Assembly (NCBI RefSeq): GCF_001889605.1
Contig: NZ_CP018171.1
Location: forward strand, 4,486,501 to 4,550,500
Source: Aquibium oceanicum
GTDB taxonomy: Bacteria; Pseudomonadota; Alphaproteobacteria; Rhizobiales; Rhizobiaceae
Length of the DNA stretch: 64,000 bases
Reading direction: 5' to 3'
Shown: piece after piece, positions 2,207 to 22,102 of the stretch
How positions within the stretch are numbered: position 1 is the stretch's first letter
Layout: each line of letters opens with the position of its first letter
Program-made: the position numbers and the translations under genes
Notes under the pieces: generated by a model
Told to the model about the DNA's origin: nothing
The model's input: only the letters and a program-made list of their open reading frames with translations
Databases searched by the model: none

Positions 2207-2267
2207 GCTGCTCTCCTCGAGGCAGGCGAAACATGAAGGGCTACATTCGCTCACCAAAAAGGAAAAA

Positions 2268-2290
2268 TGTCAATTATTTTGTTTAATTAT
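2268..2290 (-). promoter_or_regulatory. Candidate promoter/operator of the aminotransferase operon
   Basis: The 130-base gap between the GntR gene and the aminotransferase has a sharp AT-rich patch. On the minus strand it holds TTGACA (2273-2268) and an inverted repeat AATTA-N7-TAATT (2272-2288). It is a plausible operator for the GntR protein just upstream. No clear -10 box is seen, so this is tentative. Confidence 0.35.
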
Positions 2291-2336
2291 CAATGACGCG
2301 TCCCAGCGTACACCAGTGCCAACCGCGATTCGATGC

Positions 2337-4313: not shown

Positions 4314-4388
4314 TCTTCATGCCTCCAGCAATCGGCGCAAAGCGGTGGCGCCTGTCAGATGTCTGCCCGGGTCAAGGCCAACCAGCAG

Positions 4389-5300: not shown

Positions 5301-5308
5301 TGCCTCAC

Positions 5309-7161: not shown

Positions 7162-7213
7162 ACCGTCTCCCTTGCACGGCGATGCCGGCCGGCGTGCATC
7201 CGCAGCGCCCTGG

Positions 7214-8395
7214 TCAATATGACCTCGGCAGGCCCAGCGCATGCTGCGCTACATGGCTGAGGATCAGATTGGTCGATACCGGCGCCGTCCTGTACAGGCG
7301 GGCCTCGCGCCACTTTCTCTCGACATCATAGTCGCGGGCAAAGGCGAAGCCGCCGAATGTCTGGAATGTTGTGTCGGCCGCGTCCCATGTCGCTTCCGAC
7401 GCAAGCAGGACGGCCATATTGGCTTCCGCGCCGCAGGGCTGGCCCGCCTCGAACAGCGCCATCGCACGCTCAACCATGAGCGCGGCAGCTTCCAGACTGA
7501 CGTGAACCTTCGCAAGCGGGAACTGGATGCCCTGATTCTGACCTATCGGACGGCCAAAGACCTTTCTTTCACTGGCATAGGAAACGCCCTTTCCCAACAG
7601 CCAGCGCCCGTCGCCGATGCACTCGGATGCGATGAGTATGCGCTCGGCATTCATGCTGTCGAGGATATAGCGGAAACCCTTGCCCTCCTCGCCGACAAGG
7701 CTGGCTGCCGGGATACGCAGATCGTCGAAGAAGATCTCGGTTGTGTTGTGGTTGACCATCGTCTTGATCGGACGGATCTCCATTCCCTTGCCGATCGCGG
7801 CGCGCATGTCGATAAGGAACACCGACAGGCCCTCGGTACGTTTCGTGACCTGATCGAGCGGCGTGGTGCGGGCAAGCAGCAGGATGTAGTCCGAAAAGAG
7901 TGCCCGCGAAGTCCACACCTTTTGCCCGCGGATCACATAGGAATCTCCCTCGCGAACGGCCATAGTCCGCAGCTGAGTGGTGTCAGAACCCGTCGTGGGC
8001 TCGCTGATGCCGAATGCCTGCAGTCGAAGTTCGCCGGCCGCGATACCAGGCAGCACAGCCCGCCGCTGCTCCTCGCTGCCATGGCGCAGCAATGTGCCCA
8101 TAATGTACATCTGCGCATGCGCACAGTTTGCCGAGCAGCCGCTCAGATTGATCTCCTGGAGGATCGCCGCCGCTGCGCCGAGCGGCAAACCCGAACCGCC
8201 GAATTCCTCCGGAATCAGCACCGACAGGAAGCCAGCCTCGGTGAGAGCCTGCACGAAGGCTTCCGGATAGGCTCCACGCTCGTCGAGATCACGCCAGTAG
8301 TCCCCCGGGAACTTCTCGCAGATGCGCCGTACGGAATCGCGAATTTCCGGGTAGTCGGAGGCCATGCTTGCGGCAGCGTTGGCAGGTACGTTCAT
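7214..8395 (-). CDS. Acyl-CoA dehydrogenase
   Basis: A 393-residue flavoprotein introducing a double bond between C2 and C3 of an acyl-CoA and passing electrons to ETF. Domains follow the family order. There is an N-terminal helical domain ending at LPLGAAAAILQEINLSG, and a middle beta domain with LQAFGISEPTTGSDTTQL and VRGQKVWTSRA-like flavin contacts. A C-terminal helical domain follows, with ILDSMNAERILIASE and YDVERKWREARLYR. ATG 8395 (MNVPANAA) is the best start; its gene overlap with the upstream CoA-transferase stop at 8425 is avoided by 29 bases. It supplies the enoyl-CoA for the hydratases of the operon. Confidence 0.9.
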   Translation of the reverse strand: MNVPANAAASMASDYPEIRDSVRRICEKFPGDYWRDLDERGAYPEAFVQALTEAGFLSVLIPEEFGGSGLPLGAAAAILQEINLSGCSANCAHAQMYIMGTLLRHGSEEQRRAVLPGIAAGELRLQAFGISEPTTGSDTTQLRTMAVREGDSYVIRGQKVWTSRALFSDYILLLARTTPLDQVTKRTEGLSVFLIDMRAAIGKGMEIRPIKTMVNHNTTEIFFDDLRIPAASLVGEEGKGFRYILDSMNAERILIASECIGDGRWLLGKGVSYASERKVFGRPIGQNQGIQFPLAKVHVSLEAAALMVERAMALFEAGQPCGAEANMAVLLASEATWDAADTTFQTFGGFAFARDYDVERKWREARLYRTAPVSTNLILSHVAQHALGLPRSY

Positions 8396-8424
8396 AAGGC
8401 AATCGATCCGACTTCTGTGTGTCG

Positions 8425-9603
8425 CTAGTCGGCAGGCACAGAAAAGCCTGCCGGCCAGTGATCGGGATTGTGCTGACCCAGGCCGGGTGCTTTCGAGTCT
8501 GAGCGGTAGCGCACGCCGTCGAAGGTGATCGGGGTGCCAACCAGCGGCAGCGTGTCCTCGGCACACGGCGTCAGCATGCCGAGAGCCTTGGTCTGCTCGC
8601 TGTCCGAAACACCCGCGACGTCGAGCAGCGGCGAGTTCGGCACCCCCGCGTCGTCAAGTGCCGCGCAGACGTCTTCCAGCGAGCGATCCGCCAAGGCCGC
8701 CATGATGGTGCCAATAACCAGATCCCTGTGCTTCACGCGTCCGGCATTCGTGCGTAGTTCGGCGTTGTCTGCGAGATCCGAAATGCCCAGTGCAGCCACG
8801 AGCTTCGCAAACAGACGGTCATTTCCCGCCGCAATCATCACAGCGCCCGTGGCAGTCGCGAAGACCTGATACGGGACGATCTCCGCGGACCCGGATCCCT
8901 GCGGCTTGCGCACTTCGCCCGTGGCGAGATACCCGGCAAGCGGAACAGTCATCCATGCGACGCCGGTTTCGTAGAGCGACGTCCCGATATTGCGACCCGC
9001 GCCATCGCCGCGCCTGCCCACCAGCGCCGCGAGCAAGCCGATGACCGCCCACAGCGCCGTACCCATGTCGACGATCGATACGCCGACCCGAACCGGCGGA
9101 CGGTCAGCCTCACCTGTGATGCTCATGATGCCCGCCGACGCCTGGACAAGGGGATCGTAGCCCGGCTTCTCCTTCATCGGGCCGACCGAGCCGAACGCAC
9201 CAATGTCACACCAGATGAGCGAAGGTTTCAAAGACATAAGGTCTTCTGCGGCGAGCCCGAACTTGCTCAGCAGGTTCGGGCGCAGATTCTGGATCACTGC
9301 ATCGGCCTCGTCCACGATCAGCTTGCGCAGTCGGTCCGCTTCTTCGGCAACGCTGAAATCGACCGTCACGCTTTCCTTGCCGCGGTTCAGTGCCGTGAAG
9401 ATGGTTGCCGCGCCGCCCCAATAGGGAGGACCCCAGCCGCGCGCATAGTCACCGGCCTGCGGGTTCTCGACCTTGATCACCCGCGCACCGAGATCGGCCA
9501 AGACCTGACCGGCATAGGGGGCGGCAACGCTGTGCCCGAGTTCGACGACCGTGATGCCGCGGAGCGGCCCCTCAGAAGACGGTGCAATGTTGAGACTAGG
9601 CAT
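8425..9603 (-). CDS. CaiB/BaiF family III CoA-transferase
   Basis: A 392-residue formyl-CoA-transferase-like enzyme that moves CoA between carboxylic acids. It shows the N-terminal LRGITVVELGHSVAAPYAGQVLADLGARVIKVE block, DYARGWGPP, and VRVGVSIVDMGTAL, whose Asp lines up with the nucleophile of formyl-CoA transferase (Asp169). It probably activates the acid that the acyl-CoA dehydrogenase then oxidises. ATG 9603 (MPSLNIAP) is preferred; the frame also opens at 9639, inside the operator. This is the first gene of the 9603-3201 operon and lies right behind the palindrome at 9639-9652. Confidence 0.88.
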   Translation of the reverse strand: MPSLNIAPSSEGPLRGITVVELGHSVAAPYAGQVLADLGARVIKVENPQAGDYARGWGPPYWGGAATIFTALNRGKESVTVDFSVAEEADRLRKLIVDEADAVIQNLRPNLLSKFGLAAEDLMSLKPSLIWCDIGAFGSVGPMKEKPGYDPLVQASAGIMSITGEADRPPVRVGVSIVDMGTALWAVIGLLAALVGRRGDGAGRNIGTSLYETGVAWMTVPLAGYLATGEVRKPQGSGSAEIVPYQVFATATGAVMIAAGNDRLFAKLVAALGISDLADNAELRTNAGRVKHRDLVIGTIMAALADRSLEDVCAALDDAGVPNSPLLDVAGVSDSEQTKALGMLTPCAEDTLPLVGTPITFDGVRYRSDSKAPGLGQHNPDHWPAGFSVPAD

Positions 9604-9638
9604 GCGTTGGCAGGTACTATGAGGCGAGATGCTTGTCA

Positions 9639-9652
9639 ATGAAACGTTTCAT
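9639..9652. promoter_or_regulatory. LacI-type palindromic operator, copy 1
   Basis: ATGAAACGTTTCAT is a perfect 14-base palindrome with the central CG and TGAAACG half-sites typical of LacI-family operators. It lies 36 bases upstream of the CoA-transferase start, in the 137-base gap that separates the two catabolic operons. The same palindrome, within an identical 17-base stretch, occurs at 20541-20554. No LacI-family gene is in the window. Confidence 0.75.
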
Positions 9653-9740
9653 GAAATCGCGACTGGCCGACCGGCGTTATGGAATTAGTCCCGCGGCGGT
9701 GGCCGTAGCGGCATCGACGCGGGCCTTGCCGACAGCCATT

Positions 9741-10526
9741 TCAGCGGCCTTTCCAGACTGGCTTTCGCTTCTCCAGATAGGCCTTCGCACCTTCGATGCG
9801 GTCTTCCGATGCATACGGGTTGGGCCCGACATTGAGGCGCAGTGCGGCCGACAAGGGGAGACCAAAGCTCTTGCGGGCCATTTCCTTGATGCGGCGCGTG
9901 CTGAGCGGCGCATTCGCCGCGATTGTCTCCGCCAGCTCCAAAGCGGCGGAAAGCGCTTCGCCCTGAGGCACGAGGCGACCCACGAGCCCCCATCGCTCCG
10001 CTTCCTGCGCGGTGCACAGACGGCCGGTGAACAGCAGCTCATAGGCGATCGAGGGGGGAATGGTGCGGGGCAGGACCACGCTGCCGAAAAGCGCACCCAT
10101 GCCGACCTTCGCCTCCGGAAACCCAAGCCGGGCCGTTTCGACCGCCAGCAGGATGTCGCATGCCAGCGTGAGTTCCAATCCTCCGGCGACCGCCGACCCG
10201 TTGAGTGCCGCGATGACCGGCTTTCCGACCTCGGACACCACCTCGTACACCAGCCTGTCGGAGGTGCTCATCGGCCCAAGGCCGCGATCGTTCCGCGGGG
10301 CTTCGTTGAGGTCGCTTCCAGAGCAGAATGCGCGGTCGCCCATGCCGGTGATCACGATGACCCGGACCTCCGGGTCCGCATCGGCATCCAGAAATGCATC
10401 GATGAGCTGCTCGCGCATGGCGTATGTCATGGCGTTGCTGCGCTGCGGGCGGTTCATCGTGAGCAGCCTGATGTGCCCTTTCTCCGCAATCAGCAGTTCG
10501 CGATCCGCTTCGTCGGTCCCGTCCAT
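9741..10526 (-). CDS. Enoyl-CoA hydratase/isomerase (crotonase family)
   Basis: A 261-residue crotonase-fold protein. Motifs are the oxyanion-hole CSGSDLNE, AVAGGLELTLACD with the first catalytic Glu, and FPEAKVGMGALFGSVVLPR with a Glu at the second position. ATG 10526 (MDGTDEADR) is chosen over the frame's earlier codon because GGGAGG sits six to seven bases ahead of it. It is the last gene of the 20370-9741 operon, following the zinc alcohol dehydrogenase by 11 bases. It could hydrate a 2-enoyl-CoA; substrate unknown. Confidence 0.88.
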   Translation of the reverse strand: MDGTDEADRELLIAEKGHIRLLTMNRPQRSNAMTYAMREQLIDAFLDADADPEVRVIVITGMGDRAFCSGSDLNEAPRNDRGLGPMSTSDRLVYEVVSEVGKPVIAALNGSAVAGGLELTLACDILLAVETARLGFPEAKVGMGALFGSVVLPRTIPPSIAYELLFTGRLCTAQEAERWGLVGRLVPQGEALSAALELAETIAANAPLSTRRIKEMARKSFGLPLSAALRLNVGPNPYASEDRIEGAKAYLEKRKPVWKGR

Positions 10527-10537
10527 GTGGTCCTCCC

Positions 10538-11566
10538 TCACGGAATGAGCACGACGCGGCCCAGCAACTCGTCGGATTCCGAAAGCCGGTGGGCTTCGGC
10601 GGCCTCCGAGAGCGGAAGCGTCTTGGCGACCAGCGGGCGGATCTGGCCGGCTGCGACCATGCGCAGCGCCATCTGCAGTTGCCTGCGCGACGTGCTGACC
10701 GCGCTGCGGATTTCCAGCCCCCGCCGGTAGATGCTGGTCATCTTGACCTCGACCGGCTTGCCGGTGACGTCGCCGACGAGGACGATGCGTCCGCCCAGAA
10801 CGACGGCCCGCAGCGCCTGCTGGAAGGCAGGGCCGCCGACCGTGTCGATGACCACGTCGACACCACCTGCCCCGCTGGCTTCGCGCACCGCCTTCGCGAA
10901 CTGGCCGTCGGGCGCCACCACAACGGCATCGGCCCCGAGCTCCTTGAGCATGGGGGCCTTCCGTCCGTCACGGGTCGTTGCGATCACAAAGGCACCGACC
11001 GCTTTCGCGATCTGGACAGCATGCGTGCCGACGCCGCCCATGCCGGTAACCAGCACTCGCTCGCCGATCCTTACCAGACCGGTATCGCAGACAGCGTTGT
11101 AGGCCGTCCCCACCGGGCAGCCCACGATGGAGGCGGTGACATAGTCGACGCCTTCTGGCAGCTGGCAGAGATTGTCGTCGTTGACCAGGACGAGCTCGGC
11201 ATAACCGCCCATCGCCTGATTGCCGAGGAAGCGCAGATCCGCGCAAAGGGTCTCGCGATCAGTACGGCACTTGGAGCAATGACCGCAGACGTATTCGCGC
11301 TGCGTGGACACGACCCGGTCGCCGATCTGGAAACCGCGGGCGCGCGGTCCCAACCCCACGACCTCGCCGGAGATCTCGTGGCCCAGTACAAGCGGGCTGT
11401 GCAGCTCGCGCGTCGGCGGCGCGCGGCGCACAAGGAGGTCGCGACGGCAGACACCGCAAGCGTGCACCTTTACGAGCACATGCCGCCCCGTTGGCACCGG
11501 ATCGTCCATCGTCTCGTAGGACAGACCGCTTGGCTCGCCGTGGTCGCGGACAATGACTGCCTTCAT
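10538..11566 (-). CDS. Zinc-dependent alcohol dehydrogenase (MDR superfamily)
   Basis: A 342-residue medium-chain dehydrogenase oxidising an alcohol or reducing an aldehyde or ketone with NAD(P). The catalytic-zinc Cys is in HACGVCRRD and the GHE motif in LVLGHEISGEV. The structural-zinc cluster CGHCSKCRTDRETLC is complete. A Rossmann fold follows at VLVTGMGGVGTHAVQIAKA. Start ATG 11566 (MKAVIVRDHGEP) overlaps the stop of the MaoC gene by four bases (ATGA); the long upstream extension of the frame is not real. It is translationally coupled to the split hydratase, so it may oxidise the hydroxyl made by that enzyme. Confidence 0.9.
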   Translation of the reverse strand: MKAVIVRDHGEPSGLSYETMDDPVPTGRHVLVKVHACGVCRRDLLVRRAPPTRELHSPLVLGHEISGEVVGLGPRARGFQIGDRVVSTQREYVCGHCSKCRTDRETLCADLRFLGNQAMGGYAELVLVNDDNLCQLPEGVDYVTASIVGCPVGTAYNAVCDTGLVRIGERVLVTGMGGVGTHAVQIAKAVGAFVIATTRDGRKAPMLKELGADAVVVAPDGQFAKAVREASGAGGVDVVIDTVGGPAFQQALRAVVLGGRIVLVGDVTGKPVEVKMTSIYRRGLEIRSAVSTSRRQLQMALRMVAAGQIRPLVAKTLPLSEAAEAHRLSESDELLGRVVLIP

Positions 11567-12033
11567 GAAGCGCCTCGAATGTCTTGCTGTGATAGTGCGG
11601 CCGAAGCCAGTTCGATCGTTGCGGCGGCGTCGGAGATCACGACAGTACCGTCCGTCTTTCTCGCCGTGAGCACCGCGTCCACCAGACCCGCGCCCGACTG
11701 AGCGGACTTCGACACGACGCGGCCCTCGAAGACCACGGTCTCGCCGGCAAATACCGGCTGGCGCTGGCGGTAGCCGAGGCGCCGCAGATAGGCGTCGTCG
11801 CCGCCCCACGACATCATCATGCGGGCCATGAGTGCGCCCAGCATCTGACCATCCGCCACTGGCGCCGGCATGCCGAAGCGTCGAACGAACTCCGTGTCGT
11901 AGTGGTAGGGATGAAAGTCCCAGGTGGCAGCCGCGTATCGGACAAGAGACGTCAGGCTGAACTGGAACTCGATCGGCGTTTCCGCATCGCCGATGCGGAC
12001 GTCCTCGAAGCGCATTGTGCGTGAGGTGCTCAC
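11563..12033 (-). CDS. MaoC-like (hot-dog fold) dehydratase subunit
   Basis: A 156-residue hot-dog protein. The segment RYAAATWDFHPYHYD resembles the MaoC catalytic loop with its Asp/His pair, and the VADGQMLGALMARMM helix follows. It is translationally coupled to the FAS1-like hot-dog gene upstream (4-base overlap) and the alcohol dehydrogenase downstream (4-base overlap). Such split pairs act as heteromeric (R)-specific enoyl-CoA hydratases, with this kind of partner supplying the catalytic residues. Substrates of known relatives include mesaconyl-CoA-like and steroid side-chain enoyl-CoAs. The present one is unknown. Confidence 0.85.
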   Translation of the reverse strand: MSTSRTMRFEDVRIGDAETPIEFQFSLTSLVRYAAATWDFHPYHYDTEFVRRFGMPAPVADGQMLGALMARMMMSWGGDDAYLRRLGYRQRQPVFAGETVVFEGRVVSKSAQSGAGLVDAVLTARKTDGTVVISDAAATIELASAALSQQDIRGAS

Positions 12034-12515
12034 TTCAGATACACGTTGGCTTCCACGTTTGTGGCCAGCGTCTCGCCGTTCTGGTTGGTGTAGTCCGCAC
12101 GCGACGTCACGAAGACAGCGGAGTCTCCGCCGCGCGTCCGACGTTCAACGATGTCCACGATCCTCCACGTCACGGAGACGCGATCTCCTGGCCTCGCCGG
12201 CTGGACGAACTCGTAGGTGTTGCCGCTGCGCATGAACCGGCGTCCCTCGAGTGGGAGATCCCACTCGACGCCGTCGGAGCCGCGACCCGGCTCGCCCCCG
12301 AGAATCTGGTTGGTCTCGCAGATCAGCGTGGGCGGCGCGATCATGCCACGGTGCTTGCTGAGACCGGCGCGCGCGGTGTCGCTGTAGAGCGGATTGGCGT
12401 CTTCGGTCGCCAGCGCGAAGTAGCGCACCGCCGCCTCGCCTAATGGCTCCGGTGCGGTGAATGTCTGCTCTCTGCCGACGTGAGCAAGCAGGCGCTCGTC
12501 GAGATCCTCGCTCAT
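12030..12515 (-). CDS. FAS1-like dehydratase-domain protein (MaoC partner subunit)
   Basis: A 161-residue hot-dog protein of the N-terminal FAS1-like dehydratase type. It has the family's AVRYFALATEDANPLYSD segment, then APPTLICETNQIL and a C-terminal strand pair ending NQNGETLATNVEANVYLK. It starts at ATG 12515 (MSEDLDERL), overlapping the tandem RidA stop by four bases. The longer upstream frame is a shadow of the RidA gene. It presumably forms a two-subunit hydratase with the next gene, which overlaps it by four bases. Confidence 0.82.
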   Translation of the reverse strand: MSEDLDERLLAHVGREQTFTAPEPLGEAAVRYFALATEDANPLYSDTARAGLSKHRGMIAPPTLICETNQILGGEPGRGSDGVEWDLPLEGRRFMRSGNTYEFVQPARPGDRVSVTWRIVDIVERRTRGGDSAVFVTSRADYTNQNGETLATNVEANVYLK

Positions 12516-13468
12516 CCGGCAACTCCCGGATGCACCTGCGCCGCCACTTCCACGACGATCAGCGCACCCGGCCTCGTGAGGCCTTCGCAGACCACGCCGG
12601 TCGCAGCGGGAAACGGCTCGGAGAACATGTCCCGACGGACCTGTGCCGTGTCCCGGTAGGAGGTCAGTGCCTCCGGAGTGATGAACTCCGTCGTCTTGAG
12701 GACGTCGTCGAAGCTGCTGCCGGCCGCATCGAGCATCCGCCCGAGGCGCTCGTATGCGTCCCTGCATTGAGCGCCTATGCCATCAAGCGCGGGATCGCCG
12801 GTAACGGAAAGGAAGACCACGTTTGACGGACCTGGCCGTGCAATCGTCGTCTCGATCTGAACGCCTTCGCCGCCGTTCGAAAGGCAGGGACATATGATGG
12901 CGGCGTGACCCTCCGGCAAAGTCAGTGCCGGTGCCTTTTCGCCAGGCGCCACGAACTGCGTCTGGCGCAACACGGTGGCGCCGTCTCGCATCACATCGCC
13001 GAGCGCCCGTTCTGCATCTTCGCCCGTCGCGCCGAACACGGACGGCAAGTGCTGAAAGCCATGCACTCCCGGTACGAAGGCCTCGACTTCGAGGAGCGCG
13101 TGCTCGCGCAGCAGCCGCTTGACGACTATGTCCGTGGAAACGACCGACGGGCCGAGCAGGCTGCGCTGCAGCGCATCGAGAGCCGGAACATCCGCAAGCA
13201 CGTCGGAACGGATGTAACGCACGACGCGTGTGATGTCGCCGAGCCCTTTTCGGGCCGGGTCCAGGCACAGCCTTATCTTGTCGAACACGATTTCCGCCTG
13301 CTCGACCAGGCCTCCGTCCACCACCATCTTGTTGGTGTCGGCTTCGTGGCGCACAGCCGTGCACCCCGACATCCAGATGCCGCTGTCGGCAATCACGCCC
13401 AACGAGAAGGCGAAGCGCCGATAGTCCAGATAAGGGAAGTATTCTGGCTGCAGGGTCTGCCGGGTCAT
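12512..13468 (-). CDS. Tandem RidA/YjgF-fold protein
   Basis: A 318-residue protein made of two Rid domains in tandem, about residues 15-155 and 180-315; ordinary RidA is about 130 residues. Typical RidA hydrolyses reactive enamine/imine intermediates using an Arg equivalent to Arg105 of E. coli RidA. By hand alignment this position is His in the first domain (REHALLEVEAF) and not Arg in the second (GALIVVEVA). It is therefore more like the non-archetypal Rid subfamilies, often found in catabolic operons with poorly known function. ATG 13468 lies two bases after the stop of the preceding enoyl-CoA isomerase gene and behind GGAAGGGA. Confidence 0.8.
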   Translation of the reverse strand: MTRQTLQPEYFPYLDYRRFAFSLGVIADSGIWMSGCTAVRHEADTNKMVVDGGLVEQAEIVFDKIRLCLDPARKGLGDITRVVRYIRSDVLADVPALDALQRSLLGPSVVSTDIVVKRLLREHALLEVEAFVPGVHGFQHLPSVFGATGEDAERALGDVMRDGATVLRQTQFVAPGEKAPALTLPEGHAAIICPCLSNGGEGVQIETTIARPGPSNVVFLSVTGDPALDGIGAQCRDAYERLGRMLDAAGSSFDDVLKTTEFITPEALTSYRDTAQVRRDMFSEPFPAATGVVCEGLTRPGALIVVEVAAQVHPGVAG

Positions 13469-13470
13469 CG

Positions 13471-14286
13471 TCAACGTCCCTTCCAAACCGGCGTACGTCT
13501 CTCGCCATACGCTCTCAGAGCTTCGTGGTGATCCTCGGTGGCGCCAACGAACTCCTGGGCCTTGGCAACCAGGCGCGCCGAATCCTCCAGCGTCTGCCCG
13601 ATCGATTCACCCAGCACCAATTTGAAAGTCTGCACCGTCAGCGGCGGGCAGTTCTGGCTGATCTCCAGCGCCAGCGCGCGGCTGGTCGCCATCAGCTGTT
13701 CCGGCGCCACGACGTGGCCCACGAAGCCGATCTCCTTGGCTCGGGCGGCGTCGATCGTGCGCCCGGTAACGCCCCATTCAAAAGCATTGGCGTAGCCGAT
13801 CAGCTGCTGCACGAGGGCGAGGCTCATGTCGTCGGGGACTATACCGCGGCGCACGAATACCCAGCCGAACTTGGCCTCCGACGAGGCGATCCGGATATCG
13901 CATCCGGCGGCGAGGCCGATCCCGGAGCCAACGGCGGGACCGTTTACGGCCGCGATCGCCGGCTTCGACAGACTCCGCAGGCTGTTGACCACCTTGCGGA
14001 TACCCACGTCGATGGGCGACAGCTGGTCGCGCGGCGACGGCGCTTCGGCTTCGAGAACCTTGCCCTTCTCGATCATCTTCTTGATGTTGCCGCCTGAGCA
14101 GAAGATGCGCCCCGAGCCGGTGAGGATCATCACGCGCGCGGACGGGTCGCGGTCGATGCGCTCGACCTCCGCGACGATCTCCTCGTTCATTTCCGGGCTG
14201 ACGGCGTTCTTGGCCTCGGGATCATTCAACGTCACCGTTACGATGCCGTGCTCGTCCTGTTCCGTGATGATGTATCGATAGCCCAT
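13471..14286 (-). CDS. Crotonase-family enoyl-CoA isomerase/hydratase lacking both canonical Glu
   Basis: A 271-residue crotonase-fold protein with the oxyanion-hole motif FCSGGNIKK. It differs from the other two in the window. The first catalytic Glu position reads GSGIGLAAGCD, without Glu. The second region reads FVRRGIVPDDMSLALV, with Asp instead of Glu. That pattern recalls isomerases such as PaaG, where an Asp is the base. Isomerisation or ring or epoxide chemistry is thus more likely than simple hydration. Its start overlaps the long C-terminal tail of the upstream CoA-transferase frame by 65 bases. Confidence 0.85.
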   Translation of the reverse strand: MGYRYIITEQDEHGIVTVTLNDPEAKNAVSPEMNEEIVAEVERIDRDPSARVMILTGSGRIFCSGGNIKKMIEKGKVLEAEAPSPRDQLSPIDVGIRKVVNSLRSLSKPAIAAVNGPAVGSGIGLAAGCDIRIASSEAKFGWVFVRRGIVPDDMSLALVQQLIGYANAFEWGVTGRTIDAARAKEIGFVGHVVAPEQLMATSRALALEISQNCPPLTVQTFKLVLGESIGQTLEDSARLVAKAQEFVGATEDHHEALRAYGERRTPVWKGR

Positions 14287-15574
14287 GTAGTCCCCGTCTA
14301 TTCCGAAACGCAGCTGGAGGGCCTGGTGGCGTCCCAGCGCGCAAAGGAAGCCATGTGAGTATTCGGTCGCGTTCCATCTGCTCGTATTCGGCCTCGGTTC
14401 GCCCGAGCAATCCGATGATGATTTCCCGACTGTGCTCGCCTAGCAGCGGTGCGCGGGTTGACCGCGTACCCAGGCTGTCCATGGTCCACGGAAGACCGAG
14501 GTGGCGATGGCGGTTCGCTACGGGATGGTCGATGCTGACAACCATGCCCCGCGCATCGAGCTGGGGATTATCCAACAGCTCGTCGGAGCGAAGCACAGGG
14601 CCTGCCATCACGCCCGCAGTCTGGAGCTGGACCACCATCTCGTAGAGATCGTGTGCCGACGTGCAGGACGCGACTTCGGCATCCAGCGCCTCGACATTCT
14701 TCAGACGCGCCGGCGCATTGGCGAAGCGTGCATCGGAAGCGAGGTCGGTGCGTCCCACAACGTTGCAGAACGCCTGCCATGACTGGTCGTCCGCAATGCT
14801 CAATGCCAGCCAACGATCCTCGCCAGCCGCCGGATAAATACCGTGCGGGGCCTTTTGCCTGTCGCGGTTTCCGACGCGGCGCGGCTCCACGCCGTTCATC
14901 GTGAGGTCGATGACAGCTTCGGGTATCAGCGTGAGCATCGCCTCGTACATGGCGACGTCGACATACTGGCCGAGCCCCGTATGTGTACGATGTTCCAGAG
15001 CGGCCAGTATGGCAAAGGCGGCGTAGATACCGCTCAGCGGGTCGGGCAGCACGCTGCCCATGATCCGCGGCCCGCTATCGACATAGCCGGTGACATCCGC
15101 AACGCCGCTGAACAGGTTGACCGTCGAATGCAGGCCGCGCCCATCCTTCATCGGTCCCGTTCTGCCGAATGCGCCGTTGGAGATCATCACGATTCCGGGA
15201 TTGATGCGCGCCAGCACATCGTAGCCGAAGCCGAGCTTTTCGATCACTCCCGTGGCGAAATTCTCGACGACGACGTCGCACACCGCGACGAGTTCGTGAA
15301 CGATCCGCTTCCCCTCTTGTGTCGCGAGGTCCAGCGTGAGGCTCTTCTTGGTGGCGTAAAGGCTGTTGAAGTAGCCGCTTGCGTTGCGGTTGCCTTCCTG
15401 CCCCTCCTCGAACGGCGGTGCGCCGCGCGCCGTGAGACGCGAGCTCGACTCTATCGAAATGATCTCCGCGCCCAGCTGACCGAGCCAGAGCGTACAGAAG
15501 GGGATCGCCACGAACTGCCCGAAATCGAGCACGCGAATGCCTTCGAGCGGCAGTGGCTTGGGGGAGGTGCTCAT
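14222..15574 (-). CDS. CaiB/BaiF family III CoA-transferase, subunit 1 of an adjacent pair
   Basis: A 450-residue CoA-transferase, longer than the usual 390-410. It has the IRVLDFGQFVAIPFCTLWLGQLGAEIISIE start, VVENFATGVIEKLGFGYD, and GSVLPDPLSGIYAA carrying the presumed nucleophilic Asp. The conserved protein appears to end near the EYEQMERDRIL region. The remaining about 36 residues are Arg/Gly/Pro-rich and lie partly inside the next gene. In another frame from about 14350 the sequence would stop at 14298, 11 bases before the next ATG, so a frameshift near 14350 is possible. Its start overlaps the stop of the next CoA-transferase by four bases (ATGA). Confidence 0.83.
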   Translation of the reverse strand: MSTSPKPLPLEGIRVLDFGQFVAIPFCTLWLGQLGAEIISIESSSRLTARGAPPFEEGQEGNRNASGYFNSLYATKKSLTLDLATQEGKRIVHELVAVCDVVVENFATGVIEKLGFGYDVLARINPGIVMISNGAFGRTGPMKDGRGLHSTVNLFSGVADVTGYVDSGPRIMGSVLPDPLSGIYAAFAILAALEHRTHTGLGQYVDVAMYEAMLTLIPEAVIDLTMNGVEPRRVGNRDRQKAPHGIYPAAGEDRWLALSIADDQSWQAFCNVVGRTDLASDARFANAPARLKNVEALDAEVASCTSAHDLYEMVVQLQTAGVMAGPVLRSDELLDNPQLDARGMVVSIDHPVANRHRHLGLPWTMDSLGTRSTRAPLLGEHSREIIIGLLGRTEAEYEQMERDRILTWLPLRAGTPPGPPAAFRNRRGLHGLSIHHHGTGRARHRNGDVE

Positions 15575-16809
15575 GCGACTTCCCCGATCGGCGCAATGCC
15601 TGCATCGTCTTCAGGCGAAAAGCGTGGCGCCGGGCGACGAAGGCTCCACGGTGTCGCCGCCATTTTGAACGGCGCGCCAGGCATCTGCGCCGGCCTGTTT
15701 CCGACCGAAAAATCGACGAGGCTCGCCCTGTCTCGGGCATGATCGGATTCGGCCATCTGGCGGATCGAGTGGAACGGGAACATCATGAGCCCGTACCGCT
15801 CTCCGATGCTCTGCAACTGAGCACGCGTACAGCCCATTGCCCACGTAGCCAGCCTTTCCCTCAACTCGATCCAGTTCCTGGCCCTTGCCGGCTCGGTAGC
15901 GAAATCGGCGCTACGCGCCCATTCGGGATTACCCATCGCCTCTGCGAGGCGGTTCCAGTGTATGTCCATCGGTGCCGCGATCGTGACGTAGCCGTCCTGG
16001 CACGAAAGGTAGAAGTTCGGCATGCGCCCAATGGAAGTCGGATTGAGGAGCCGGTTGTAGACCGCGCTGCCGTACGAAGCCGGCATGAGATCCCTGATCT
16101 GCACAGCCGCGGACGCAGCCTGAAAGCTGAGGTCGAGATGGCAGCCCTCACCGGTATGTCGCCGGCCCGTCACGGCCGTCATCACGGCAACGGCCGCGGA
16201 GGCCCCGGCGATCGTCTCGCTTGCAAAGCAGGAGGGGTGCAGCGGCGGCTCACCGTCGAGGTCTTCGGCAGCATCCGGAATGCCGGGCGTACCATAAGCC
16301 ATGCCGCTCGCGGCATAGGCGATCAGCTCGTCGCCCCTCCAGTCGCTCCAGGGACCGCCACGTCCGAAAGGCGAAAGCGTGGCCACGATCAGTCGGGGAT
16401 GGCGTCTGCGCAACGCCTCCGGGTCGCAGCCTGCCGCTCGCAGAACGTTAGGCGCGACGTCGGTGACGAAAATGTCGACCGACTTGAGAAGCCGGTCCAG
16501 CGCTTCGGCGCCTTCGCCCGCCTCCACGTCGAGCACAACGCCGCGCTTGTTGGCATTGAGATACATGAAGAGGCCGCTTGCATCCGGATCGGGCTTGCCG
16601 TCCGGGAACGGTCCACGCCTGCGTGTCGGGTCTCCTTGCGGCCTCTCGACCTTCACCACGTCCGCTCCGAAATCGGCAAGAAGCTTGGCGGTGTAGGCGG
16701 CAGCGGTGCCTTCTCCGAACTCCACGACGGACAGGGCGCCCAATGCCCCCCGCCCCAGTTGCGCGGCGTGTGTCTCGGGACGGGAGTTGTGTTCAGACGC
16801 GATAGTCAT
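15571..16809 (-). CDS. CaiB/BaiF family III CoA-transferase, subunit 2, catalytic Asp apparently replaced
   Basis: A 412-residue family III CoA-transferase: LSVVEFGEGTAAAYTAKLLADFGADVVKVE at the start, NANKRGVVLD, and ELIAYAASGMAYGTPG. At the nucleophile position, where relatives have Asp, hand alignment gives SETIAGASAAVAV, with Glu. It is coupled to a second CoA-transferase gene, and adjacent pairs of this family form heteromers in benzylsuccinate (BbsEF) and malate (SmtAB) activation, where one subunit can be non-catalytic. ATG 16809 (MTIASEHNSR) is used; the frame continues upstream over the permease gene without meaning. Confidence 0.85.
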   Translation of the reverse strand: MTIASEHNSRPETHAAQLGRGALGALSVVEFGEGTAAAYTAKLLADFGADVVKVERPQGDPTRRRGPFPDGKPDPDASGLFMYLNANKRGVVLDVEAGEGAEALDRLLKSVDIFVTDVAPNVLRAAGCDPEALRRRHPRLIVATLSPFGRGGPWSDWRGDELIAYAASGMAYGTPGIPDAAEDLDGEPPLHPSCFASETIAGASAAVAVMTAVTGRRHTGEGCHLDLSFQAASAAVQIRDLMPASYGSAVYNRLLNPTSIGRMPNFYLSCQDGYVTIAAPMDIHWNRLAEAMGNPEWARSADFATEPARARNWIELRERLATWAMGCTRAQLQSIGERYGLMMFPFHSIRQMAESDHARDRASLVDFSVGNRPAQMPGAPFKMAATPWSLRRPAPRFSPEDDAGIAPIGEVA

Positions 16810-16840
16810 GGGCTGTCCGTTGCATTCGGGGCTGCGGTAC

Positions 16841-17752
16841 TCAGAGGTTGCGCGACATCTTCGGATCGAATTCGTCGCGCACCGCGTCGCCCAGAAGGTT
16901 CGAGGCGAGGACCGTGAGGAGTATGGCAAGGCCGGGGAAGATGACGACCCACGGCGCCACGAGCGCCAGGGTCGTCGCCGATCCCGACATCATCAGGCCC
17001 CACGACGATTGCGGCTCCTGGATTCCGGCGCCGAGGTAGTCCAGCGCCGCCTCCTGGACGATGACAAGGCCCAGATAGGCGGTCGCTATGACGAGCAGGG
17101 ATCCCAGTATGTTGGGCAGGATGTGACGGAAGATGATGCGCGAGTCGGTGCATCCCGTGGCGCGAGCTGCCTCGATGAAGGTCGTGTGCCTGAGCGACAG
17201 CGTGCCCGCTCGCGCAATCCGCGCGGTCCGCGGGATGATGGGGATGCCCAGCGCGATGATAACGTTGATCGTCGAGGGTCCGAGCACGGCGCTGATGGCA
17301 AGCGCCAGGAGCAGGAGCGGGAATGCCAGCAACGCATCCATGATGCGCTGGCTGACGGCATCGAACCAGCCGCCGAAATAGCCTCCCAGAATGCCCACCG
17401 CGGTGCCGAGCACAACACCGAGCATGCTGGAGCCGAAACCGATGATGAGCGAAGTACGTGCGCCGTAGAGCAAGCGGGAGAGCGTGTCGCGCCCGAACGC
17501 ATCCGTACCGAGCAGATATGTTGCGCTCGGCGGGTGGTAGAGCGCCGTAGCGTCGCCGACCGTCGGATCGTAGGGTGCAAGCCATGGAGCAAAAACCCCG
17601 CCGAACGTCATGATCGCCAGCACCACTGCGCCGAAGGTCCCCAACGGGTGGCGCCGTATCAAGGCGCTCAACTTCTGCAGGGTTCCCCGCTCTGCCTCGA
17701 GGGAGGCCGTGGCAGTGGACTGTGCCGCGGGTTGCATAGCCATACCGCTCAT
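16841..17752 (-). CDS. Dipeptide-type ABC importer permease (DppC/OppC family)
   Basis: A 303-residue inner-membrane permease with an N-terminal cytoplasmic stretch and a first membrane helix near residues 36-58. The conserved LLGTDAFGRDTLSRLLYGARTSL periplasmic segment is present, as is an EAA-type loop (FIEAARATGCTDSRIIFRHILPN). It forms the channel with the DppB-like gene upstream, whose stop overlaps its ATG by four bases. Unlike a normal Dpp/Opp operon, no ATPase gene follows; the next gene is a CoA-transferase. Confidence 0.92.
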   Translation of the reverse strand: MSGMAMQPAAQSTATASLEAERGTLQKLSALIRRHPLGTFGAVVLAIMTFGGVFAPWLAPYDPTVGDATALYHPPSATYLLGTDAFGRDTLSRLLYGARTSLIIGFGSSMLGVVLGTAVGILGGYFGGWFDAVSQRIMDALLAFPLLLLALAISAVLGPSTINVIIALGIPIIPRTARIARAGTLSLRHTTFIEAARATGCTDSRIIFRHILPNILGSLLVIATAYLGLVIVQEAALDYLGAGIQEPQSSWGLMMSGSATTLALVAPWVVIFPGLAILLTVLASNLLGDAVRDEFDPKMSRNL

Positions 17753-18714
17753 TTCGACCTGCCTGCGAGCCGAACGCGCGGATCGAGCCAGCCATAGGCG
17801 AAGTCGACGAGGATGTTGCCCAGCACCACGATGCTGGCCAGGATCAAGACGATCGCTTGGAGTGCCGGATAGTCGCGGTTGGCAATTGACGTGACGACGT
17901 ACTGGCCGAGGCCGGGCACGTTGAACACCGTCTCTGTTACAATCAGCGCGCCGAACAGGGCGGCGAACTCGAAGCCGATCAGGGTCACGAGCGGCAGCAG
18001 GCCGTTCCGAAGTCCGTGGCGGAAGATGACGTTGGCTTCAGACAGGCCCTTCGAGCGCGCGGTGCGAATGTAGTCCTCGTTCAGCACATCGAGCATGATC
18101 GAACGCGTCATGCGGGAGATCAGGCTCACCTGACGCAGGCCGACCGCAAGCGCCGGCCAGATCGTCTGCGCGATGCTGGCGGCTGGGTCCGACCAGAACG
18201 GCTCCCAGAACAGCGGTGCGCTCCAGTTGAAGACCGTGACCAGCGCGAGGATAATCAGGATGCCCACCCAGAAGGACGGGGCTGCGAGTGCGAGCACGCA
18301 TAACGTCTGCAGCAGCCGGTCGCCCCAGGAGCCGACATAGCGCGCTGCCATCACGCCGGCCGGCACGCCCAGGACGACCGCGATTACCATCGCCATGAGG
18401 ACGATCTGAAGCGTGAACGGGAACCGTTGCGCGATGTCCTGCATCACGGGATTGCCCGTGCGCAGGGACGTTCCGAGGTCGTACGCCGCGACATCGCCGA
18501 GCCAGATGAAGAATTGCACGGGGATCGGCAGGTTCAGGCCCAGCCGTTCCCGCACCAGTTCGAGATCTTCCGCGCTCCCCGCAACGGAGTCGCCCCCGGA
18601 GAGGATGATCGCCGCATCGCCCGGAATGATCCGGGCGATGACGAAGACGATCGCGGCAACCAGGAGCAGGGTCACCAATCCTGAGAGAAGCCGAAAGAGT
18701 CCGTATCTGAGCAT
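17749..18714 (-). CDS. Dipeptide-type ABC importer permease (DppB/OppB family)
   Basis: A 321-residue permease with the classical opening LRYGLFRLLSGLVTLLLVAAIVFVIARIIPGDAA. The EAA loop reads DYIRTARSKGLSEANVIFRHGLRN, and a VNFAYGWLDPRVRL-like C-terminus ends the protein. It pairs with the DppC-like gene and takes substrate from the binding protein encoded 20 bases upstream. The substrate cannot be told from the permease; operon context suggests the acid or acyl-amide degraded by the CoA enzymes downstream. Confidence 0.92.
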   Translation of the reverse strand: MLRYGLFRLLSGLVTLLLVAAIVFVIARIIPGDAAIILSGGDSVAGSAEDLELVRERLGLNLPIPVQFFIWLGDVAAYDLGTSLRTGNPVMQDIAQRFPFTLQIVLMAMVIAVVLGVPAGVMAARYVGSWGDRLLQTLCVLALAAPSFWVGILIILALVTVFNWSAPLFWEPFWSDPAASIAQTIWPALAVGLRQVSLISRMTRSIMLDVLNEDYIRTARSKGLSEANVIFRHGLRNGLLPLVTLIGFEFAALFGALIVTETVFNVPGLGQYVVTSIANRDYPALQAIVLILASIVVLGNILVDFAYGWLDPRVRLAGRSK

Positions 18715-18733
18715 CGAACGGGGCTAGCTCCGC

Positions 18734-20370
18734 CTAGCTTTCAAGCCAGACCTTATCCATCTGCATATTACTGAAGCCATCGTTGGACGGCGTCCAACCC
18801 TTCAGCCGGTCGGTATGGGCGAACCCAAAGCCGACCCATGCCATATTGATGTGATAGTACGTCCCGAGGAAGGCGAGCTGCTGCTGCCGGATCAACTCCT
18901 TACGCTTCTCCGGATCGGCTTCGCCCGACTGGGCGCGGAACAGGGCGTCGATGGAATCGTCCTTCCACTTCCCGTAGTTGCGGTAGCCGAAGCTCGTATA
19001 TGCGTCGCCGAGGATGATGTCGGGCAGCGCACCGGCTACCGCGATCGAATGGACGAGGACTTCGAACTCGCCGGCGAGTTCGCGGGCCACGAAGGCACCG
19101 ACGTCCATGATCTCCACGGATGCATCGAAGCCGATCGTGTTGAGCTGCGCGGCAACATTGATCGAAGAGTCGCGGAACACTGGAAGGTCGCCGCGCGTCG
19201 GCAGCTTGAGTTGGTAGCCGGGCTCTACCCCGGCCTCCTTCAGGAGTTCACGTGCACGGGCCCGGTTCGCCTCGATGTCGCCGCCGAGTCCGGGGATGGT
19301 GTCGTAGCCGGCGAACTGCTTCACCTCTTCTTCGGTCAACGCATAGGGGCTGCCGGGCGGCAACAGGCCGAGGCTGTGGAAGTTCGCGCCGGACAACGGG
19401 CCGACCGTGTTGATGAAGGCCGTGCGGTCGATCGCGAGCGAGAGTGCCTCGCGGACCCTCGGGTCATCGAACGGCTTCTTGAGCACGTTTGAAATCAGGT
19501 TGACGAAGGTCGGCGTCAGCGCATCGCCCACGACCAGCCCCTCTGCCTTCTTCAGGTCGCTGATGACCGCCTGGCTGGAGAAGAGGAAACAGGCATCGAC
19601 GCGGTCGCCGCGGAGGGCGACGCTACGCTCGATTTCGCCCGGTATCGGGAAGAACTGGATTCCGTCGAGGTTGGGCGCGCCGCCGAAGTAGTCGTCGTTG
19701 CGCACGAGTTCATAGAGCTGTCCGTCAACCGCGCGGGCCAGCTTGAACGCGCCTGTCCCGACGATCTGCCGCTTCATGCCCACGCCTTCCGCGTCGAGCG
19801 GCTCCGCGATGCGCTTCGGGTAGATGGCATTGAACGGGTTGCTCACCAGGTACGGGAAGTCCGCCTGCGGCTGCTTCAGGGTCACCTTCAAAGTGTTGGC
19901 ATCGGCAGCCTCGACCTCCGCGATATTGGAGAAGGTGTTCTTGCGGGGACTGTTGATCCCCGTGGGAGGATTCCGGATGCGGTTGATGCTGAAGACGACG
20001 TCGTCGATCACAAGATCGCCGCCGTCGTGAAACTTCACGCCCGACTTGATCTTGTACGTAACGGTGAGTCCGTCCTCGGAGACTTCATAGCTTTCGGCGA
20101 GATCGGGGACGAGCTTGGTCGTGTCGCTGGGATCGATCCGCATCAGCGTCGAGTAGCATGGCGCGCAGGATTCTGTGTGAGGTAAGTGCCGGACTGGTGG
20201 ACGTCGAAGTCAGGCGGGGTACCACCTATGGTCACGCGAAGCGTGCCGCCCTTCTCCTGTGCAGACGCCCAGTTGAAGGGCATCAATGCCGACGCTGCGA
20301 CCGTCCCGCCCAGCCCCAGCAGCACGCCCCTGCGATTAGGAGCCAATTTGTCGACGCCATCCCATTTCAT
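18734..20370 (-). pseudogene. Family 5 (DppA/OppA-type) solute-binding protein gene with a one-base frameshift
   Basis: The gene for a periplasmic binding protein is split in two frames. The first part (20370 to about 20156) encodes a Tat-like signal (PNRRGVLLGLGG), the mature start GGTLRVTIGGTPPDFD, and runs out at NPARHATRR-stop. The second (from about 20155 to 18734) encodes the rest, LMRIDPSDTTKLVPDLAESY onward to KVWLES. Restoring one base between 20156 and 20155 gives NPARHAYSTLMRIDPSD, a normal family sequence. Total length would be about 545 residues, as expected. Either this strain has lost the importer's receptor, or the assembly has a base error here. The rest of the operon looks intact. 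Confidence 0.88.
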
Positions 20371-21027
20371 AGCTCAGACCTTTCCGGATCTCTGCAGAAG
20401 CACTGCATTACGCACTGCGTCGGGGCCGATGATCCGAGCGTTTTTCTTCAGATCTTAACGGGATCGCCGAGAAAGAGCGTTGCCGAAGCTCCTAGGTGTG
20501 AATTGCATGGGAAGCGTAGCACCGCCATTTAGGAATGTAAATGAAACGTTTCATGATTTCTGGTCAGACCTCTGTGGCGCGTCGTTGCAGGTTCCGGAAA
20601 GTCGTTGCGCTGGTCCTTTCCGAGCGGGCTCTTCTCTTCACAAGCGGCGTCCGCATTGCGCGATCGTCTCGCCCACCACTGCTACTTTCGAAACAGGAAT
20701 CGACTGCTCGTCGTGCTCGGCCGTTGCGCGCATGCTGGCCAGGCAAGCCTGCCAACGGGGCGCGAGATCGTCCCAGCCAACGAACTCCTTTCTTCTGACA
20801 TTGTGCGCCGGGCTTCGGCAGAAGCTGTCGAGCCGATCGAGAGCACCATCGTTTGTTCAGACCGGGCGTGGATACCCTTTGGCCGGTCGGGAATATCGCC
20901 TCCAGCGGCACCCCTGTCGCCGCCCATCGCCGGCATTGCCGCCGAACTTACTCGAACAGGCGAGTTGAGGCTCTCGGCGAAATGGTGTTAGCTGCCCCCA
21001 CCAAAAGCCACAATGGAGGCAATTCGA
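20371..21027. other. 657-base divergent intergenic region
   Basis: It separates the minus-strand catabolic operon (start 20370) from the plus-strand TAXI-TRAP operon (start 21028). It holds the LacI-type palindrome at 20541-20554. The remainder, about 20560-21010, has several open frames on both strands, but none has a ribosome binding site plus a recognisable domain. I could not assign them and see no clear remnant of a known gene. Promoters for both operons must lie here. Confidence 0.6.
20541..20554. promoter_or_regulatory. LacI-type palindromic operator, copy 2
   Basis: A second perfect ATGAAACGTTTCAT palindrome, flanked so that 17 bases (AATGAAACGTTTCATGA) are identical to the copy at 9638-9654. 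It lies about 170 bases upstream of the binding-protein gene that heads the 20370-9741 operon. Two copies at the two operon heads imply a single LacI-family regulator encoded outside the window. Confidence 0.75.
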
Positions 21028-22047
21028 ATGAAATCGCTCATTTTTTCAGCGCTGGTGGCCATGGGCCTGGTGGCCGGCTCTTCCGTGCAGGCACAGGAAC
21101 CGCAGTTTTTCCGCATCGGCACCGGCGGCACCGCCGGCACCTATTATCCGATCGGCGGCCTGATCGCCAACGCGATCTCCAACCCGCCGGGCTCCAGGCC
21201 CTGCGAGGACGGCGGCTCGTGCGGCGTTCCGGGGCTGATCGCCACGGCCCTGTCGGCCAACGGTTCCGTGGCCAACGTCAACGCCATTGCGGGTGGCACG
21301 CTCGAATCCGGCTTTTCTCAGTCCGACGTCGCAACCTGGGCACAGACGGGCACCGGCATCTGGCAGGATCGCGAGGCGGTCACGAAGCTGCGCGCCATCG
21401 CCAACCTCTATCCCGAAACGATTCACCTGGTCGCGAGCGCCGAGAGCGGCATTAAGAGTGTCGCGGATCTCGCCGGCAAGCGCGTTTCCCTGGACGAGCC
21501 GGGTTCCGGCACCTTGGTGGATGCGCGCATCATCCTCGAGGCCTACGGCCTGAGCGAGGACGACGTCGAAGCGGCCTTCCTGAAGCCCGACCAGGCCGCG
21601 GAGCGGATGCGCGACGGCGCCATGGACGCGTTCTTCTTCGTCGGCGGCTTTCCCGCCGGCGCGATTGCCGAACTGGCGAGCCAGGAGGACATCACGCTGG
21701 TTCCGATCTCGGGCAGTGAGGCCGAGGGCGTGATCGGCAAGTACACCTTCTTCGCCGAAAACACCGTGCCCGGCGGCACTTACGAGGGCGTCGACGAAGA
21801 CACGACGACGCTGTCGGTCGGCGCGCAGTGGATCACCTCGGCCGACCAGCCGGACGACCTGATCTACAACGTCACGGCGGCTCTGTGGAACGACAACACC
21901 CGCAAGCTGCTGGATGCCGGCCACCAGAAGGGCAAGCAGATCACGCTCGAGACGGCTCTCGACGGCGTGGGCATTCCGCTGCACCCGGGTGCGGCCCGCT
22001 TCTACGAGGAAAAAGGCATGGACGTCAGCGGCATGACCGCCGAATAA
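21028..22047 (+). CDS. TRAP transporter TAXI-family solute-binding protein
   Basis: A 339-residue periplasmic receptor. It has a Sec signal peptide (about residues 1-23, cut near VQAQE), then the TAXI hallmark FFRIGTGGTAGTYYPIGGLIANAIS. The later YPETIHLVASAESGIKSVADLAGKRVSLDEPGSGT segment is also family-typical. TAXI systems import dicarboxylates, glutamate-like or aromatic solutes driven by a cation gradient. The start is ATG 21028, with GGAGG at 21015-21019; the ATG at 21013 is part of that site. It is followed, after a strong hairpin, by the fused membrane subunit. Confidence 0.93.
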   Translation: MKSLIFSALVAMGLVAGSSVQAQEPQFFRIGTGGTAGTYYPIGGLIANAISNPPGSRPCEDGGSCGVPGLIATALSANGSVANVNAIAGGTLESGFSQSDVATWAQTGTGIWQDREAVTKLRAIANLYPETIHLVASAESGIKSVADLAGKRVSLDEPGSGTLVDARIILEAYGLSEDDVEAAFLKPDQAAERMRDGAMDAFFFVGGFPAGAIAELASQEDITLVPISGSEAEGVIGKYTFFAENTVPGGTYEGVDEDTTTLSVGAQWITSADQPDDLIYNVTAALWNDNTRKLLDAGHQKGKQITLETALDGVGIPLHPGAARFYEEKGMDVSGMTAE

Positions 22048-22059
22048 GTCCTCAGATGC

Positions 22060-22083
22060 GTGGGGCCGGTTCGCCGGCCCCAC
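22060..22083 (+). terminator. UUCG-capped intercistronic hairpin in the TAXI-TRAP operon
   Basis: A perfect 10-base-pair stem (GTGGGGCCGG / CCGGCCCCAC) closed by TTCG sits between the binding-protein stop (22047) and the membrane-subunit start (22103). Only a short T stretch follows. It probably acts as a partial terminator or mRNA stabiliser that raises the binding-protein to permease ratio. Confidence 0.75.
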
Positions 22084-22102
22084 TTTGCAAGCGGAGCGCA
22101 GC

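Follow-up and report, generated by a model that had tools for sequence, protein, structure and literature searches.

Probable LacI-type operator sites abutting -35-like boxes at the heads of two adjacent catabolic operons of Aquibium oceanicum, and a candidate regulator encoded beside them

Which protein reads a palindrome that stands in identical form at the heads of two adjacent catabolic operons, and what would it do there? The question was raised by a stretch of 64,000 nucleotides of Aquibium oceanicum (contig NZ_CP018171.1, positions 4,486,501 to 4,550,500 of the forward strand), which is referred to here as the window. An earlier note had read the two copies as LacI-type operators of a regulator not in the window. 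This interpretation was supported by the present sequence analysis, and the LacI/operator pair recurred in other genera. Both sites are likely to be operators of a LacI-family protein encoded in the same cluster (genome positions 4484722-4485819), which would act as an inducible repressor that occludes the -35 boxes of an organic-acid regulon.

A rare palindrome and the LacI-family gene beside it

The site is a perfect 14-bp palindrome with a central CG, the even symmetry expected of a LacI-family operator and remarked on before.

9639-9652, minus strand: operator 1, ATGAAACGTTTCAT; its final T, read on the minus strand, also opens the predicted -35 box
20541-20554, minus strand: operator 2, ATGAAACGTTTCAT

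A mismatch search of the window returned just these two places even when up to 3 mismatches were allowed, and the claim that a third copy is absent therefore held. The identity between the two sites extended to 17 bases (AATGAAACGTTTCATGA, 9638-9654 and 20540-20556), as had been reported together with distances of 36 and about 170 bases to the operon starts. The measured distances were 36 bases from operator 1 to the CaiB start (ATG 9603-9601, minus strand) and 171 bases from operator 2 to the start of the substrate-binding protein (ATG at 20370). The shuffled windows contained on average 0.68 matches at up to 3 mismatches, with two or more in 17 of 100 shuffles; taken alone, the count in the window is near chance. 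Such a count would suit two copies that arose by chance or as a duplicated promoter fragment with no regulatory role, and a copied promoter could yield a 17-base identity. However, the sequences that flank the 17 bases differ between operators 1 and 2, and in several genera the operator with its adjoining -35 box is linked to a LacI gene, with no occurrence away from it in the genomes searched. An origin without regulatory meaning is hence regarded as very improbable.

In the whole genome (5,324,561 bases), ATGAAACGTTTCAT had exactly two places, and 12 places at up to 2 mismatches; the wide scatter that such a search might have revealed was not found. The 12-mer TGAAACGTTTCA had three exact places, every one in a single cluster. 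The 10-mer core GAAACGTTTC had five (3027518, 4480116, 4484537, 4496141, and 4507043), of which four fell within 27 kb, the last two being the window operators. The binomial probability of this clustering was about 3e-9 with the cluster picked after the fact and 4e-8 for 25 kb on either side of the LacI gene. Few sites confined to one cluster are the mark of a local regulon. The fifth core, at 3027518, lay within a minus-strand reading frame of 395 amino acids, whose product looks from its sequence like a site-2 protease. A wider regulon was considered and rejected: TGAAACGTTTCA at 1 mismatch had 7 places, 4 of them in the cluster. The others were at 3511058, inside an open reading frame (ORF); at 4350533, upstream of another LacI gene; and at 4983481, with only short ORFs around it, one overlapping. 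A composite pattern search found no operator followed by a -35 box at any of the three.

The LacI-family gene (G000:C1:4484722-4485819, + strand) ends 0.7 kb to the left of the window, which starts at 4486501. The regulator was thus correctly placed outside the window, although it is a neighbour and not remote. According to a PF00356 profile search, the genome has six LacI helix-turn-helix (HTH) matches, five above the cut-off, and the highest (62.4 bits at 4484809) was the cluster's own. The protein itself matched PF00356 (58.5 bits) and PF13377 (101.9 bits), both above the cut-off, and consists of an N-terminal LacI HTH and a periplasmic-binding-protein-like effector domain. The earlier note had proposed looking for a LacI-family gene with its own copy of the site, and the sequence TTGAAACGTTTCCA was found upstream of this one (4484535), in the gap that separates it from a divergent GNAT gene, with 1 mismatch to the window operators in the 12-bp core and 3 in the 14-mer. 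The regulator gene adjoins its putative targets and has a putative site of its own, a layout that suggests autoregulation. The called start of the GNAT gene touches this site, and a later start than that of the ORF caller is likelier. A further site, GTGAAACGTTTCAC, was located at 4480114, 119 bp above a thiamine diphosphate (ThDP) enzyme reading frame. The two sites of the window are hence joined by two others, at 4480114 and 4484535, and the cluster holds four. The divergent run is composed of the GNAT gene, two Opp ATPases, a thiolase, a ChsH2-type OB protein, and the ThDP enzyme.

The LacI protein had matches in 25 plasmid records, all below 60% identity and at 33-38% among the 20 matches listed. 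A scan of named genomes gave 7 loci at 27-33% identity, which were not used; where named, their sources were Clostridia and bacilli.

Could the sites serve another protein? Five further LacI-HTH matches, one under the cut-off, occur in the genome, and a global Cra/FruR-like regulator would recognise the same core TGAAACGTTTCA; the in vitro consensus Cra operator is given as GCTGAAACGTTTCA (PMC11157272). However, a global regulator would show scattered sites, whereas the three places of TGAAACGTTTCA are all in the cluster. Moreover, the cluster LacI scored 115.8 bits against a Cra cut-off of 385 in a Cra-model scan that covered this protein only, so that it falls outside the Cra/FruR group, and the LacI-family gene at 4351020 has a different palindrome, ACTGTAACGTTACAGG, upstream (L023, 184 bp upstream of 6021). 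Service to another regulator is therefore thought improbable.

Predicted promoter geometry and its recurrence in relatives

A new observation of this analysis is that, on the coding strand, each window site is directly followed by a -35-like box. The minus-strand sequence at operator 1 is TGAAACGTTTCA-TTGACA-17-TACCTG and that at operator 2 is TGAAACGTTTCA-TTTACA-17-TACGCT, in which 17 is the length of the spacer.

9634-9639, minus strand: predicted -35 box of operon 1, TTGACA, immediately next to the 12-bp core (9640-9651)
9611-9616, minus strand: predicted -10 box TACCTG (weak) of operon 1, after a 17-bp spacer; predicted transcription start at about 9604
20536-20541, minus strand: predicted -35 box of operon 2, TTTACA, immediately next to the 12-bp core (20542-20553)
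20513-20518, minus strand: predicted -10 box TACGCT of operon 2, after a 17-bp spacer

The centre of the 12-bp core lies at -41.5 relative to the predicted promoters. The predicted -10 box at 9611-9616 would place the transcription start of operon 1 at or beside the CaiB ATG (window 9601-9616), and the mRNA of operon 1 is therefore possibly leaderless. No adjacent -35 box was present at the cluster sites 4480114 and 4484535.

In the proposed mechanism, the cluster LacI would occupy four or more sites of the 27-kb cluster, namely between its own gene and the divergent run, above the ThDP frame, and at the head of each window operon. A LacI dimer on the core would cover the -35 box and keep sigma off, and in the absence of the substrate the genes for taking up and degrading an organic acid would be repressed. 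When the substrate is present, a pathway metabolite would release LacI from the sites. The acid would then be converted to a coenzyme A (CoA) ester by CaiB, followed by dehydrogenation, hydration, and cleavage by an enzyme like 3-hydroxy-3-methylglutaryl-CoA (HMG-CoA) lyase. Local LacI regulators commonly repress. Repression is favoured here by -35 boxes near consensus, by the base that the operator shares with the -35 box, and by a second operator-like sequence, TGAACCGTTTCA, in a promoter spacer of the relative G118.

The geometry was followed in related genomes. A LacI protein search of 297 genomes of the family (E <= 1e-60) matched 12 genomes, including the window's own, and a second search of 397 genomes of the order (E <= 1e-80) matched 7 besides the window's own, at 45-54% identity. 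Patterns were searched in 394 family genomes, a set that overlaps with the 297 but differs from it. The strict operator/-35 pattern TGAAACGTTTYMTTGAC occurred in 5 of these 394 genomes, at seven places; besides the window's own genome these were G015, G016, G033, and G118, which were also the next-best LacI matches (44-57% identical) in the 297-genome search. All seven places were within 12 kb of a LacI homologue, and the reversed pattern had 2 matches in the 394 genomes. Six of the seven order relatives had, beside the LacI gene, a TGAAACGTTTCA site at up to 2 mismatches followed by at least 5 of the 6 letters of TTGACA; three of the seven (G546, G602, and G456) conformed to the strict pattern. 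The loosened pattern TGAAACGTTNNNTTKAC was applied to a set of 12 genomes, namely every genome that either of the two protein searches had matched at 44% identity or more; in 11 of them the composite had already been seen. It gave 19 places across 11 of the 12 genomes, each at a distance of 0.2-21.2 kb from the LacI gene, against 0 for the reversed control. LacI regions below 44% identity (G265, G211, a second G015 locus, G080, G272, and G213) were fetched and stand outside this count; G252 and G267 were viewed with flanks of 1.5 kb only.

The spacing between operator and -35 box was fixed. The 12 neighbourhoods, 444,571 bases in all, contained the pattern TGAAACGTT at 36 oriented places, each perfect palindrome being counted on both strands, and at 29 distinct ones. 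TTGAC followed at offset 0 after 18 of the 36 and stood at no other offset from -3 to 39, and one further place, operator 2, had TTTAC at offset 0. At both window operators, and in relatives at 17 of the 25 distinct sites next to the gene, the core was followed by a -35-like hexamer with no base between them. An A preceded TGAAACG in 17 of the 19 composites. Fourteen of the 19 had a -10-like TANNNT after a spacer of 17 or 18, a count that is flattered because the best of three spacers was taken. The half-site on the -35 side was variable (TTTCA, TTTTA, TTTTC, TTTCC, TTATA, TTATC, TTATT, and TTACA); the constancy of the upstream half-site is a product of the search design.

The same regulator on the same sites may instead be an activator, or have a dual role, and contact sigma region 4 from -41.5, which is also the position of class II activators. 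CRP at class II promoters and Cra at ppsA are models for an activator so placed. TTGAC was always at offset 0 (18 of 18 within -3 to 39) despite differing spacers and first genes, the half-site on the -35 side is degenerate, and simple occlusion would tolerate many positions. However, class II promoters usually lack a near-consensus -35 box of the kind present here. Furthermore, the operator and the -35 box have a base in common, a second operator-like site lies within the G118 spacer, and the constancy of the offset may partly reflect common descent of the promoters. Activation is thus considered rather unlikely. A broader proposal was judged just as doubtful: a LacI lineage would have left sugars for branched-dicarboxylate/CoA catabolism, with a rigid operator/-35 fusion, ATGAAACGTTNNNTTGAC, and a protein that touches RNA polymerase as a class II activator or dual switch. 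The contact with polymerase is suggested by the exact -41.5 phasing together with the degenerate half-site.

Several further points weigh against repression by the cluster LacI. A mere blocker would have no need of the exact phasing, a generic promoter scan listed neither window promoter, and the -10 boxes are poor. The strict pattern was written after five genomes had been viewed, and TGAAACGTTNNNTTKAC was loosened after variants had been seen. Ten of the 29 distinct TGAAACGTT places, including 4480114 and 4484535, had no adjacent -35 box, and the permuted 9-mer control for the offset was weak, the permuted sequences being too rare (mean 0.92). In three relatives, some places of bare TGAAACGTTT were away from the LacI gene: four of five in G016, three of six in G118, and one of two in G033. 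No site was found beside the 45% LacI homologue of G593. An exact TGAAACGTTTCA in G080 was near a 42% LacI homologue with none of the four conserved enzymes described below nearby, so the core alone is no marker of the pathway. At up to 2 mismatches, TGAAACGTTTCA was absent from the G211 region and gave one weak match in G265, the variant described next being found afterwards. Finally, a search of 396 other genomes of the order at E <= 1e-70 found nothing that matched the L-PSP-like protein of operon 2, and the membership of operon 2 in the regulon hence rests on its site.

The variant AGAAAACGTTTTCTTGACA stood above the orthologous CaiB operon in G265 and G211 (LacI 39-40% identical). The recognition helix there was ISTVSR, as against xG(T/S)(V/A)SR in the 12 genomes. 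The G265 and G211 stretches are nearly identical, and the variant therefore counts as one observation. Three other features of relatives were recorded. In G118 (L052:8384-8413), one -35 box has an operator-like palindrome on each side, the second of them lying between the -35 and the -10 position. The G118 LacI frame has one in-frame TAG. The second G015 LacI homologue (L058-L059, G015:C3:190000-229629) is accompanied by a similar CoA cluster and a row of GAAACGTTTC-like sites with other outer bases.

The operons, the conserved pathway, and a possible substrate

The earlier note had counted 17 genes (3201-20370) in the regulon. The count was confirmed as 11 genes in operon 2 (20370 down to 9741) and 6 in operon 1 (9603 down to 3201), all on the same strand; the gene at 20370 is, however, split by a frame shift, and the regulon is probably larger.

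Operon 1:
8425-9603, minus strand: CaiB/BaiF CoA-transferase (CoA_transf_3)
7214-8395, minus strand: acyl-CoA dehydrogenase
6103-7161, minus strand: Ldh_2 family dehydrogenase
5309-6103, minus strand: enoyl-CoA hydratase
4389-5300, minus strand: HMG-CoA-lyase-like enzyme (260.6 bits against an NCBIfam cut-off of 246)
3201-4313, minus strand: histone-deacetylase-like amidohydrolase
812-3083, minus strand: possible continuation, with a GntR/FCD regulator (2337-3083) and a class-III aminotransferase (812-2206)

Operon 2:
18734-20370, minus strand: solute-binding protein (family 5) of an Opp-type ABC importer, with a change of frame near 20143-20158
17749-18714 and 16841-17752, minus strand: two Opp-type permeases
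15571-16743 and 14222-15574, minus strand: two CaiB/BaiF CoA-transferases
9741-14286, minus strand: the six remaining genes, as follows
13471, minus strand: enoyl-CoA hydratase
12512, minus strand: L-PSP/RidA-like protein
12030, minus strand: FAS1-type dehydratase
11563, minus strand: MaoC-like hydratase
10538, minus strand: zinc alcohol dehydrogenase
9741, minus strand: enoyl-CoA hydratase

The importer genes of operon 2 encode a solute-binding protein and two permeases without an ATPase, and two Opp ATPases are encoded in the divergent run; the four sites would thus tie one transporter together. The divergent run with the two missing ATPases probably belongs to the regulon, which would then exceed 17 genes. 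The frame shift in the solute-binding-protein gene was located near 20143-20160, where the frame of the signal peptide (from 20370) gives way to that of the remainder (18734-20143), and represents either a sequencing error or a broken gene.

The enzyme neighbourhood was compared in 17 LacI-homologue regions (ten and seven). A CaiB homologue was present in 12 of the 17 (49-63% identity), an enoyl-CoA hydratase in 12 (49-64%), an acyl-CoA dehydrogenase in 11 (68-73%), and an HMG-CoA-lyase-like protein in 10 (45-61%). All four enzymes were found together in G015 (first locus), G016, G033, G265, G211, G630, G602, G456, and G406. The second G015 locus had three of the four, with CaiB at just 33%. 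Partial sets were found in G118 (CaiB and dehydrogenase), G612 (CaiB and hydratase), G546 (CaiB, on a 5-kb contig), and G593 (hydratase), and none of the four at comparable identity in G080, G272, and G213. The type of importer varied, being of the branched-chain-amino-acid type in G033 and, judged from gene sizes only, in G016, TRAP in G265 and G015, and Opp here. A MmgE/PrpD protein came next in G033, G016, and G265.

Because these four enzymes are conserved neighbours of the LacI gene, the target of the regulon looks like an organic-acid/CoA pathway, which is unusual for LacI proteins. The carbohydrate genes expected of a sugar-responsive LacI were not found among the putative targets, which were CoA enzymes and an Opp importer here and included importers of the branched-chain type or TRAP in relatives. 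Residues 6-296 of the 303 of the HMG-CoA-lyase-like protein align with a solved HMG-CoA lyase. The solved relatives of the operon 1 CaiB include succinate-hydroxymethylglutarate CoA-transferase, and its score was far under the nearest NCBIfam equivalog cut-off (282.8 against 750). From the likeness of CaiB to this transferase and from the lyase-like enzyme, the substrate may be guessed to be a branched dicarboxylate like 3-methylglutarate.

Two features of the surroundings were also noted. Downstream of operon 1, on the same strand and with gaps above 100 bp, lie the GntR/FCD regulator, the class-III aminotransferase, and an aldehyde dehydrogenase; the GntR/FCD-type protein in this run is a possible second local regulator of the pathway. 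Operator 2 has operon 2 on one side and, across 20555-24181, a divergent pair of genes on the other, for an NMT1-like solute-binding protein (21028-22047, + strand) and a DctM-type TRAP permease (22103-24181, + strand); it might also act on this transporter.

Significance and comparison with known systems

A search of the open-access literature, with most subscription journals outside its reach, found no paper on such a regulon. One paper that looked close (PMC7002103) has the two terms in question in unrelated rows of a table. For an unstudied catabolic cluster, the analysis names a candidate regulator, defines a precise operator, and supplies a testable list of about 24 genes (17, 6, and the regulator). 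In the genomes searched, the composite motif was specific enough for finding more members of the pathway. Moreover, the difference between the G000-type and the G265/G211-type operators, beside that between their recognition helices, offers a natural experiment, on a small scale, on the specificity of LacI proteins.

Among the best full-length NCBIfam matches of the cluster LacI were RbsR (195.4 bits), PurR, and CcpA, each under its curated cut-off, and these regulators have different targets. RbsR 9ny7 was among the best matches to solved structures (E 6.7e-49). The likeness to Cra (FruR) of E. coli lies in the core operator TGAAACGTTTCA (PMC11157272); Cra is global in E. coli, whereas here the exact 12-bp sites are in one cluster.

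In the reconstructed LacI regulons, of which 72% are autoregulated, the palindromes are as a rule even and centred on CG, and most sites lie 30-140 bp above starts (PMC4052901). The present cluster shares with the local LacI catabolic regulons of RegPrecise the even, CG-centred palindrome and a regulator gene with its own site (PMC4052901). It differs in the pathway, in a comparison outside which the supplementary tables of PMC4052901 lie: almost all of those regulons are for carbohydrates, whereas a pathway of CoA-transferase, acyl-CoA dehydrogenase, and HMG-CoA-lyase-like enzyme would be controlled here. Of 182 LacI groups with assigned pathways, 176 control carbohydrates (Ravcheev et al., 2014; PMC4052901), and the present regulon would add a non-sugar target to this family.

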